Shown here piece by piece: positions 43,753 to 47,247 of a DNA stretch of 64,000 nt (positions are counted from its first letter, which is position 1; each line of letters begins with the position of its first letter). The translations under genes and the position numbers were made by a program. The stretch covers positions 124,001 to 188,000 of the forward strand of contig NZ_QMFY01000009.1 in assembly GCF_003286915.1 (NCBI RefSeq). Reading direction: 5' to 3'. A model generated the notes under the pieces. The model was given only the letters and a program-made list of their open reading frames with translations, ran no database searches and was not told where the DNA came from. Origin of the DNA: Pseudochryseolinea flava (lineage in GTDB: Bacteria > Bacteroidota > Bacteroidia > Cytophagales > Cyclobacteriaceae).

Positions 43753-44454
43753 TTACTTCCTTCTTCCGAAGATGCGCAACAAATACAAGAAGAGGTTTAC
43801 AAAATCGAGGTACAACGTGAGTGCACCCATGATCGCCTCTTTATGGTCTTCGTCAGATCCCTCGTTACCAATGATGTTAAGGTTTTTGATTTTCTGCGTA
43901 TCGTATGCCGTTAAGCCAACGAAGATCAACACGCCGGCGCAAGACGTAATCCAATGAAGCGTGGTGCTTTCAATGAAGTAAGTATTCACCAATCCGGTAA
44001 TCACCAAAGCAATAAGACCCATGAAAAGCAGGTTACCCCATTTTGTCAAATCTGTTTTGGTTGTATATCCCCAGGCACTCATGATGCCGAATGTTCCCGC
44101 TGTAATTAAAAAGGTAGTCGCAATTGATTCATTTTCATAAACATGAAATATCATCGACATGGTTAAGCCGAATAACATGGAGTATAGCAAAAATACAAAC
44201 GTGGCAACCGATGCAGACATACGATTAATCTGACTGACCAAGATGAACACAGAAACAATCTGCCCGATAATCAAAGCAAAAAACATCCACTTTGTTCCTA
44301 GAATAAAATCAATAAAATCGGTGTACTCTGCGGTATACCATGCGACAAATCCTGTGATTACCAATCCCAGAAACATCCAGCCATATACCTTCACCATATA
44401 CCGTTGTGTTTCCAACGCTACTTGCTGATCCAGTGAAAGAGGTTTGCTATCCAT
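43753..44454 (-). CDS. Bax inhibitor-1/YccA family membrane protein
   Basis: The 233-residue protein has seven hydrophobic helices and the family pattern: RYMVKVYGWMFLGLVITGFV at the start, FGLTMSMIFHVY and FGIMSAWGYTTKTDLT in the middle, and GLTAYDTQKIKNL near the end, where the conserved Asp pair lies. Bacterial members can act as calcium-leak channels or modulate the FtsH protease; which applies here is unknown. The roughly 340 bases upstream (44455-44790) hold no gene I can support. Confidence 0.92.
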   Translation of the reverse strand: MDSKPLSLDQQVALETQRYMVKVYGWMFLGLVITGFVAWYTAEYTDFIDFILGTKWMFFALIIGQIVSVFILVSQINRMSASVATFVFLLYSMLFGLTMSMIFHVYENESIATTFLITAGTFGIMSAWGYTTKTDLTKWGNLLFMGLIALVITGLVNTYFIESTTLHWITSCAGVLIFVGLTAYDTQKIKNLNIIGNEGSDEDHKEAIMGALTLYLDFVNLFLYLLRIFGRRK

Positions 44455-44848: not shown

Positions 44849-45691
44849 TTATTTTTTACCGAGGGTATAGGCTGCTACCGTATTGGCAAAAAACGTAGGA
44901 ACATATAGCGTGCGCGTTTTTGAGTCGAAATCGATGTCAGCAGCATTGAGTTTTTGATCTTTTGTGTCGAGCACTTTCTCAACGGCACCGCTGGCGGTAA
45001 TCGTATGTGCTTCGCCATACCAGCTTGACACAAGGAATTTATCTTTTTCTAGCTGGACAATTCCGTCAGAGCCTGCTACGATGGTTCCAATTTTTGTGAG
45101 CTTCTTGTCCCATCCAAGTTTATGAAACGCACCTGTTCCGAAGTCGGCAATGTAGAGTCCTTCTTTAAGCGCGAGCAACCCGTTCGGACTTTTGATATCC
45201 TGACTTTCGAAAAATACTTCAGCTTTGCCATTGACGATCTTGTGGATTTTTCCAGTGCCGGTATCCGAAACGTAAACATTGCCTTTGTCATCGACAGTAA
45301 TGTCATTCAAAAAGGCCGAACCAGCGATGTCGATGCGCTGTGATATTTTGCCCGCAGTAATGTCGATGGCCACAACACGGTGGATGTCTGACACGTACAG
45401 CGTATTCTTCACCAAGCCCATGCCTTTAGGAGCATCGAGACCTGTAACCCATTTTAGATTTTTGATTTTACCGTCCGGTGTGAGTTGAGAAATGAAGCCT
45501 GCACCATCAACGCTATCGGGTTTGCCGTCGATGTTCGCGACATAGATTACATTGTTTTTTGCATCGAGAAGAACAGCTTCCGGTACACTTAGCGTTGCCT
45601 CAGAATTCCATTTTGAAGTTAACGTTTGTGCATCTGCATGGATCACAAACAAACATAGCATAAGTGCGGCGAGCGCGGATATTTTTTTCAT
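44849..45691 (-). CDS. Secreted SMP-30/gluconolactonase-like propeller protein
   Basis: The 280-residue protein has a signal peptide (ALMLCLFVIHADAQ) and a six-bladed propeller of the SMP-30 or LRE type. Repeated blocks such as DITVDDKGNVYVSDTGTGKI and LYIADFGTGAFHKL and the opening PEAVLLDAKNNVIYVANIDG fit. Family members hydrolyse lactones or bind ligands; catalytic metal ligands could not be assigned with confidence. I chose the ATG at 45691 from the signal peptide. The next gene upstream on this strand is the channel homologue, about 75 bases away. Confidence 0.85.
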   Translation of the reverse strand: MKKISALAALMLCLFVIHADAQTLTSKWNSEATLSVPEAVLLDAKNNVIYVANIDGKPDSVDGAGFISQLTPDGKIKNLKWVTGLDAPKGMGLVKNTLYVSDIHRVVAIDITAGKISQRIDIAGSAFLNDITVDDKGNVYVSDTGTGKIHKIVNGKAEVFFESQDIKSPNGLLALKEGLYIADFGTGAFHKLGWDKKLTKIGTIVAGSDGIVQLEKDKFLVSSWYGEAHTITASGAVEKVLDTKDQKLNAADIDFDSKTRTLYVPTFFANTVAAYTLGKK

Positions 45692-45767: not shown

Positions 45768-46724
45768 TTAGTTCAGCGCCAAAAGGATTGCGATCAGATT
45801 GGCACTGACGTATGCGGCGATTACAAAACGCGAACCGATGCTGTTCACCCGTTCCGATTGCTGGATCTTTCCTGCGTCGTGAAGCTTCAGCGATAGCGCC
45901 GAAACAACGAGCGTGATAAATACAGCAAAAAATGTGAAGGTATGCAACGTGTCAACCAACGTGAATGCCGACGACTCGGGTAGTAGAGAATCGATGATGT
46001 ACTTGTTACCGACTGCTGCAAACAAACCACCGACGGGTAATCCGAACCGTGGTTCTAACTCTGAAGGATGTGGTGTGAAGCTCACCATGGCAATCAGAAA
46101 TGCGATGTACATGCCGATGAAGATTTTTAAAAACAATCCCCATGCATCACGTTCTAAGTCCATTTCAATGTTGAATGTTGAAAATACTTGCGCCGGATTG
46201 GAGGCGTCGCCAAAGCCCGTCTCGTAGTCATTCTCTTTGTTGATCACTTGAAAGTGGGTGATGTTCCAACCATCGATGGCTTCTTTTTCATCGAAGCGAC
46301 TGCCTTTCACATCAGGCACAAAGATGAGATGTTTGTTGTCGAACAAAGTGTTTTCAATTTGAACACGCAGATGTTGTGAATCGAATGGGAAATCTTTCAC
46401 GTCCCAACTTTCTTTCATCGTGCATTTCATCTTCATGATTGTCCAAGCCTTTCCATCAATGCTATCGTTGATGATTTCGGGTGGCTCAATTTCTTTTGCG
46501 TTGGGAATATCGAGTTGTTTTGAAAAATCAAAATCCGGATTGTCGTAGACAAACCAAAGCCAAAAGCGGATGGTGTATTCCTTATCGTGAAAGTTGATAT
46601 CGTGAACGCTGATGATGTAAGCGCCGACTTTTACAGTATCCGGTACGTTGTTTTTTGTACTGTCTTGCGCAAAGGCAGTTGTTGTGGCCAGCAGCAGGAC
46701 AAACAGGGCAAGGGTTCTTTTCAT
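45768..46724 (-). CDS. Pentameric ligand-gated ion channel homologue
   Basis: The 318-residue protein has a signal peptide (1-19) and an extracellular beta-rich domain (about 28-190). YTIRFWLWFVYDNPDFDF and the core FPFDSQHLRVQIEN (Phe112-Pro-Phe-Asp115) match the pentameric receptor fold. Four membrane helices follow at about 198-216 (M1), 227-247 (M2), 255-278 (M3) and 297-317 (M4). The flanking Cys pair is missing, as in other prokaryotic members. RFGLPVGGLFAAVGNKYII fits the M2 pore helix after its conserved Arg. The signal ligand is unknown. I chose the ATG at 46724; a promoter-like element lies upstream. Confidence 0.8.
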   Translation of the reverse strand: MKRTLALFVLLLATTTAFAQDSTKNNVPDTVKVGAYIISVHDINFHDKEYTIRFWLWFVYDNPDFDFSKQLDIPNAKEIEPPEIINDSIDGKAWTIMKMKCTMKESWDVKDFPFDSQHLRVQIENTLFDNKHLIFVPDVKGSRFDEKEAIDGWNITHFQVINKENDYETGFGDASNPAQVFSTFNIEMDLERDAWGLFLKIFIGMYIAFLIAMVSFTPHPSELEPRFGLPVGGLFAAVGNKYIIDSLLPESSAFTLVDTLHTFTFFAVFITLVVSALSLKLHDAGKIQQSERVNSIGSRFVIAAYVSANLIAILLALN

Positions 46725-46738
46725 GACGAATAAGCGAT

Positions 46739-46766
46739 CAAAAATATCACTTTTGTCCAAACCAAA
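46739..46766 (-). promoter_or_regulatory. Candidate promoter of the channel gene
   Basis: On the minus strand TTTG (46763-46766) and TATTTTTG (46739-46746) are 16 bases apart, a good Bacteroidota -33/-7 pair. Transcription would begin a few bases before the ATG at 46724. Confidence 0.5.
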
Positions 46767-46830: not shown

Positions 46831-47247
46831 ATGTATATCGGTCTATTGCATACGCATTCCTCGGTACGTTATCTTGTACTTATCATGTTACTTATCGTGA
46901 TTGGAAAATCACTGCTAGGGCTTGTGTCAAAAAAACCTTTTGAAAAGATAGACAATGTCTTCAGTCTGATCCTTCTGATCGTAACGCACATTCAATTTCT
47001 GGTAGGGTTAATTCTTTATTTTGTCAGCCCACGCGCTGGAAGCGAAAGGTACTTTAAATTCGAACACGCTTTCGGGATGCTTTTAGCGGTAATCTTAATT
47101 ACGGTAGCCAGAACAACATCGAAGAAAATGACTGACGATTCTTCTAAATTCAAGAGACTTACTTACCTAAATGTTTTGGCATTGGTCGTGATTTTGGGAA
47201 CGCTACTGATGGGACACCTTAAGATTATTGGCAATACGAACATGTGA
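46831..47247 (+). CDS. Four-helix membrane protein, cytochrome b-like annotation class
   Basis: The 138 residues form four hydrophobic helices with MYIGLLHTHSSVRYLVLIML at the start. Similar short Bacteroidota proteins are loosely called cytochrome b or CopD-like. His residues at the ends of helices (LLHTHSS, THIQ, EHAFG, GHLK) could bind haem, but this is inference. I chose the ATG at 46831; an in-frame ATG ten codons upstream exists. It is divergent from the channel gene and followed by a strong terminator. Confidence 0.7.
   Translation: MYIGLLHTHSSVRYLVLIMLLIVIGKSLLGLVSKKPFEKIDNVFSLILLIVTHIQFLVGLILYFVSPRAGSERYFKFEHAFGMLLAVILITVARTTSKKMTDDSSKFKRLTYLNVLALVVILGTLLMGHLKIIGNTNM

Follow-up and report, generated by a model that had tools for sequence, protein, structure and literature searches.

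The question raised by this locus is whether a bacterial gene encodes a true relative of the receptors for animal neurotransmitters and, if so, what the resulting channel would sense and conduct. The gene lies on the reverse strand of the window, a stretch of 64,000 nt of Pseudochryseolinea flava (contig NZ_QMFY01000009.1, assembly GCF_003286915.1, positions 124,001–188,000, forward strand), in which no tRNA or Rfam element was found. Translation starts almost certainly at the ATG at 46724, the position at which both the predicted signal peptide and the homologues begin. The initial annotation had placed the gene at 45768–46766; the gene itself stands, but its upstream end has to be withdrawn, as 46766 is in frame yet 42 bases too far upstream. 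The N-terminus has the features of a classical signal peptide, beginning MKRTLALFVLLLATTTAFAQ, and this segment varies among homologues (entropy 2.72 bits). Orthologues from the same genus are 78–79% identical and carry no stops. A chance open reading frame is excluded by these stop-free orthologues, at 79% identity, together with the full-length profile alignment to the Gloeobacter violaceus channel GLIC. The layout of the gene, the encoded domains and the adjacent genes is given in Table 1.

Table 1. Positions of the channel gene, its protein segments and the neighbouring genes in the window.
Feature	Residues	Coordinates	Strand	Remarks
β-propeller (NHL/SGL-like) gene		44849..45691	-	co-directional, 76 bp downstream of the channel gene
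pLGIC subunit gene		45768..46724	-	318 aa; CDS including stop
Predicted signal peptide	1–20	46665..46724	-	probable cleavage near AFA-Q; helix 2–17 in the model
Periplasmic ligand-binding domain, β-sandwich	21–192	46149..46664	-	sequence alignment and model
Pro-loop (Cys-less "Cys-loop"), FPFD	112–115	46380..46391	-	alignment of 81 homologues
M1 helix	194–216	46077..46145	-	invariant G204 in place of the 14' Pro
M2 pore helix, 0' to 23'	226–249	45978..46049	-	RFGLPVGGLFAAVGNKYIIDSLLP
M3 helix	256–283	45876..45959	-	invariant D258 and H261
M4 helix	287–317	45774..45866	-	AlphaFold2 model
Divergent four-helix protein gene		46831..47247	+	three invariant His; conserved neighbour

Judged by sequence profiles, by the residues characteristic of the superfamily and by the predicted monomer fold, the protein is a genuine bacterial cousin of the animal neurotransmitter receptors, that is, a member of the pentameric ligand-gated ion channel (pLGIC) superfamily, as initially proposed. 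The suggested comparison with the Neur_chan families returned a real match to Pfam Neur_chan_LBD (E = 3.9e-5), although at 23.6 bits it falls below the curated cut-off of 26 bits; the same family is matched at E ≤ 0.01 by 45 of 55 homologues. Two NCBIfam models, LGIC_1 (6e-13) and LIC (4.5e-11), also match, both with bit scores under their curated cut-offs. GLIC is the best PDB match in a single-sequence search (~1e-6), and a profile built from the 55 homologues reaches it at 2e-26 over profile positions 19–309. Single-sequence and profile searches alike point to this superfamily alone. Weak Pfam matches to DUF998, UFC1 and DUF6520 were discarded, being partial and below cut-off and falling for the most part on helices or the signal peptide.

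The AlphaFold2 monomer was predicted from an alignment with 51 homologues, which left out the plasmid-borne members, and has a pLDDT of 92.5 and a pTM of 0.80; it supersedes a first model made from 7 sequences (pLDDT 69.8, TM ~0.42 to GLIC). It consists of strands within residues 29–192 followed by helices 195–216, 223–247, 256–283 and 287–317, in line with the β-rich domain and four terminal helices that had been recognized from the sequence. The top Foldseek matches are all pLGICs, with TM values of ~0.73–0.79. VIA-align superimposes the model onto GluCl (Z 24.2) and GLIC (Z 23.8; 281 residues, 2.3 Å) over 281–284 residues spanning both domains, with r.m.s. deviations of 2.1–2.3 Å. The superimpositions thus cover complete pLGIC subunits, four helices included, and neither loss of the ligand-binding fold nor a non-pore arrangement of the helices, the outcomes that would have spoken against the assignment, is seen in the monomer model.

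The residues most conserved across the superfamily have been listed by Jaiteh et al. 2016 (PMC4795631) and include the [F/Y]PxD Pro-loop with its absolutely conserved Pro. The FPFD core noted initially is indeed this loop: P113, F114 and D115 are present in 81 out of 81 homologues, as is Q117, and position 112 is Phe in 74 and Tyr in the other 7. The β9 W153, the pre-M1 R192 and the M2–M3 P249, identified by the GLIC alignment together with that list (PMC4795631), are likewise invariant in the 81 sequences. The ligand-binding domain also carries W55/W57, K77, K98 and the motif Y167-x-T-x-F-G-D. The bend residue at M1 14' is Pro in 77% of the superfamily, where Gly (5%) and Ser have also been recorded (PMC4795631, PMC549065); G204, found in all 81 homologues, is one of these recorded substitutes. 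The disulfide-forming Cys pair of the metazoan Cys-loop receptors is absent around the Pro-loop, and C101 is a Cys in only 48 of the 81 homologues, where it has no partner.

On its sequence, the M2 pore helix is nearly frozen and unlike that of any solved pLGIC structure, and the M1–M3 stretch, searched alone, gave no sequence match among solved structures. Its hallmark reads RFGLPVGGLFAAVGNKYIIDSxLP. Mean entropy over 62 non-redundant members is 0.14 bits in M2; the extracellular domain reaches 1.29, M1 0.64, M3 0.98 and M4 1.92. Synonymous codons vary freely in M2, so the constraint acts on the protein, and a constraint at the DNA level is ruled out. Within the stretch LFAA[VI]GNK the invariance is partly circular, because this eight-residue scan pattern favours members that carry it; the second scan pattern lay outside M2, and the rest of the helix is not directly affected. 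M2 aligns to GLIC without gaps from 0' to 23', and standard prime numbering predicts a lining made up of G2', G6', F9', G13' and Y16', with an acid at -2'. This acid, Glu or sometimes Asp, and F9' are both found in 81/81 homologues, and N14' and K15' are invariant. As Phe occupies 9' in 13% of pLGICs (PMC4795631), a Phe gate is not unheard of, and it is the combination that is distinctive.

We consider it likely that the protein forms a homopentameric channel facing the periplasm, probably selective for cations, in which a small ligand, perhaps a carboxylate, gates the Phe 9' ring. Extending established pLGIC knowledge to this protein, five identical subunits would assemble in the inner membrane and expose their β-sandwich domains to the periplasm. 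A small soluble ligand would sit between subunits under the loop C motif, against W55 of loop D, K77 of loop A and K98 of loop E. Its binding would shift the Pro-loop, with D115 paired to R192, against the M2–M3 loop at P249; M2 would then tilt and relieve the hydrophobic Phe ring. A periplasmic metabolite would in this way cause cation entry and alter the membrane potential or the ion content.

The nature of the ligand is the weakest step of this explanation. By analogy with GLIC, the likeliest single class would be a small carboxylate, because conserved lysines stand at the position of GLIC R105 and probably also at that of R77. In GLIC, R77 (loop A), E181 (loop C) and R105 bind mono- and dicarboxylates between subunits, while R85 is the intra-subunit carboxylate residue (PMC7336382). 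K98 aligns gap-free to R105 and is Lys in 77 and Arg in 4 of the 81 homologues. K77, present in all of them, belongs to a DIPNAK segment where GLIC has WIPEIR, and lies on a model strand (76–79) just ahead of β5; in the shortened loop A region the alignment is ambiguous, as HMMER pairs K77 with GLIC R85 and a wider profile leaves the region unaligned. GLIC E181 has no certain counterpart. Carboxylates modulate GLIC rather than open it.

There is about an even chance that a pLGIC with the same assembly and gate responds to another trigger, such as protons (as GLIC), amines (as ELIC) or calcium depletion (as DeCLIC). The characterized bacterial relatives all use non-carboxylate triggers; the aromatic residues W55 and W57 in loop D and Y167 in loop C, each invariant in the 81 homologues, would suit an amine, and the conserved acids D29, D42, E124 and D138 could sense protons. 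Against a cationic ligand stands the presence of two conserved lysines in the wall of the presumed pocket, where a cation would be a poor fit.

As for the permeant ion, cation selectivity appears likelier than anion selectivity because of the acidic residues at -2', which occupy, in the ungapped alignment, the position of E222 in GLIC, a cation-selective channel. The assignment is uncertain, since the -2'E/-1'P/0'R signature blends cation-type and anion-type features and M3 carries T29' and D26', both typical of metazoan anion channels (PMC4795631). These two M3 residues, the Pro at -1' and Arg at 0' beside M2 and the invariant Lys at 15' would all suit an anion-selective channel, a reading that we nonetheless regard as unlikely in view of the acid retained at the E222 position by every homologue.

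More speculatively, and in our estimate improbably, the frozen, glycine-lined M2 with its single Phe ring and K15', in a widespread subgroup of apparently single origin, could mean that these channels gate and conduct by a rule unlike that of every structurally known pLGIC, with a wide backbone-lined pore that perhaps admits larger ions, while sensing a periplasmic carboxylate. It is a little less probable still that the fold is kept without ordinary ion conduction, the conservation of M2 reflecting a packed or signalling role or the permeation of larger solutes. Such a role would be consistent with the conservation of every M2 face and not of the lining alone, with the glycines at 2', 6' and 13' and the proline at 4', with the Gly/Gly/Phe/Gly/Tyr lining, with the loss of the M1 kink proline and with the lack of sequence matches to M1–M3 among solved structures; however, the protein retains what a gated ion pore needs, namely the acidic -2' ring, a hydrophobic ring at 9' and every coupling residue.

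The preferred reading, a ligand-gated and probably cation-selective channel, can be set against known systems. With the proton-gated GLIC the protein shares, besides the fold and the M2 register, a Cys-less Pro-loop, the acidic -2', a short M3–M4 loop and the lack of an accessory domain. The two proteins are only 15% identical, and they differ at M1 14' (Pro in GLIC, Gly here), in the M2 lining (T/S/I/A/I in GLIC, G/G/F/G/Y here), in the Lys at 15' found here and in the β2–β5 region, which is shorter here, with IPNAK facing the WIPEIR of GLIC and the Trp absent. ELIC, sTeLIC and DeCLIC, the second of which was retrieved by Foldseek, are bacterial homopentameric pLGICs with known triggers; the window protein has no counterpart of the additional N-terminal domain of DeCLIC. 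GluCl, GlyR and the GABA-A receptors have in common with it the whole-subunit fold, the pre-M1 Arg, the Pro-loop, the M2–M3 Pro and the M3 26' Asp, whereas the window protein lacks their disulfide Cys pair and long M3–M4 domain and has an M2 unlike theirs.

A pLGIC in a Cytophagales genome has been known since 2004: Tasneem et al. 2004 (PMC549065) described three in Cytophaga hutchinsonii, one of simple architecture, suggested chemotactic receptor roles and noted that Gly is permitted at the M1 bend. The simple C. hutchinsonii protein, likened here by its description only, also consists of a ligand-binding domain and four helices and comes from the Cytophagales, like the closest named relatives of the window protein. 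Nothing further on Bacteroidota pLGICs was found beyond that study (PMC549065), and no description of the subgroup with a GNKY pore, in a search confined to papers available without subscription; the GNKY pore subtype appears to be uncharacterized. Its pore sequence is covered by no solved structure, and the subgroup bears on the biological role of bacterial pLGICs. The structural models GLIC, ELIC, sTeLIC and DeCLIC are single, isolated sequences. This subgroup numbers hundreds, is deeply sampled, has a simple architecture of 318 residues and shows a presence/absence series within one genus, and the ungapped GLIC register gives direct mutational predictions for the Phe 9' gate, the -2' acid and K15'.

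The subgroup is patchily distributed and widespread. A genome-wide scan of one-per-species genomes found at least 204 loci with relatives, mostly from Cytophagales among those seen; the 80 loci kept for analysis are all from Bacteroidota by title. The initial view of the family as rare in bacteria holds only in part: its occurrence is sporadic, but relatives of this one protein alone account for those loci in species representatives. A channel match is present in 8/59 close relatives and, when weaker pLGIC-like matches are included, in 59/291 genomes of the order and 26/395 of the phylum. Plasmid proteins from Azospirillum and Streptomyces cover at least 80% of the query and are hypothetical where annotated. 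In a tree of 55 proteins, whose deep order is unsure owing to long branches, a single branch (94/93) separates the 45 whose M2 contains GNKY, one of them encoded on an Azospirillum plasmid, from the rest. An origin as viral or plasmid cargo was rejected: no relative was found in IMG/VR or phages and no PHROG, and plasmid matches are confined to Azospirillum and Streptomyces.

Three further observations concern relatives of the protein. Two BFVD entries, A0A5J6VL22 (a Megaviridae environmental record) and A0A7S9SUV3 (Virus NIOZ-UU159), are predicted pLGIC folds that match the model with E-values of 2e-17 and 1.5e-15, respectively. Two genomes of one family (f65) each encode two pLGIC paralogues (L117/L118 versus L102/L101), one with the GNKY pore and the other with GAIFAAIASQY, which offers a natural pair in which to compare pores. 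Some long pLGIC-like proteins (L009:256-2373; other frames of 708–740 aa) carry an N-terminal extension of ~380 residues that resembles periplasmic binding proteins by eye and has no Pfam match.

The divergent small four-helix membrane protein with His residues, noted from the outset, does exist, and all of 73 distinct homologues share its H9, H53 and H79. It matches no family in Pfam or NCBIfam above cut-off and has the look of an unannotated membrane protein that binds haem or a metal and is common among the relatives. The suggestion that it is the partner of the channel fares less well. Its gene occurs in 43/59 relatives, as against the 8/59 with a channel, and when the conservation of the divergent pair was checked, three genomes of the same genus proved to keep it in an intact OmpA-like/four-helix/β-propeller frame with no channel in between. 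On this phylogenetic profile and the channel-less loci the idea of a dedicated partner was rejected; the neighbourhood is stable and the channel gene an optional part of it, and the presence or absence of that gene between species of one genus also means that it is dispensable. That the two proteins work as a single unit and share a promoter region is very unlikely. In its favour, their genes are divergent and less than 400 bp apart in 48 of the 80 loci and 2.6–3.9 kb apart in the same arrangement in about 16 more (hand count), but the profile and the channel-less genomes speak against it, as do distant subgroup members that have no such neighbour in the flanking stretch examined. Shared descent is the best account of the adjacency.

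In about 16 relatives the four-helix and channel genes are separated by a third gene, for an ~810-aa protein that is peptidase-like by eye; this gene is co-directional with the channel gene (for example L018:3424-5853, L041:3451-5874 and L021:2561-5014) and is an alternative operon mate. The β-propeller gene may share an operon with the channel gene, in close relatives only. A Bax1-I (TMBIM-like) membrane protein is encoded at 43753–44454 on the reverse strand, two genes downstream from the channel, an arrangement common to close relatives only; the Bax1-I/TMBIM family includes calcium-leak channels.
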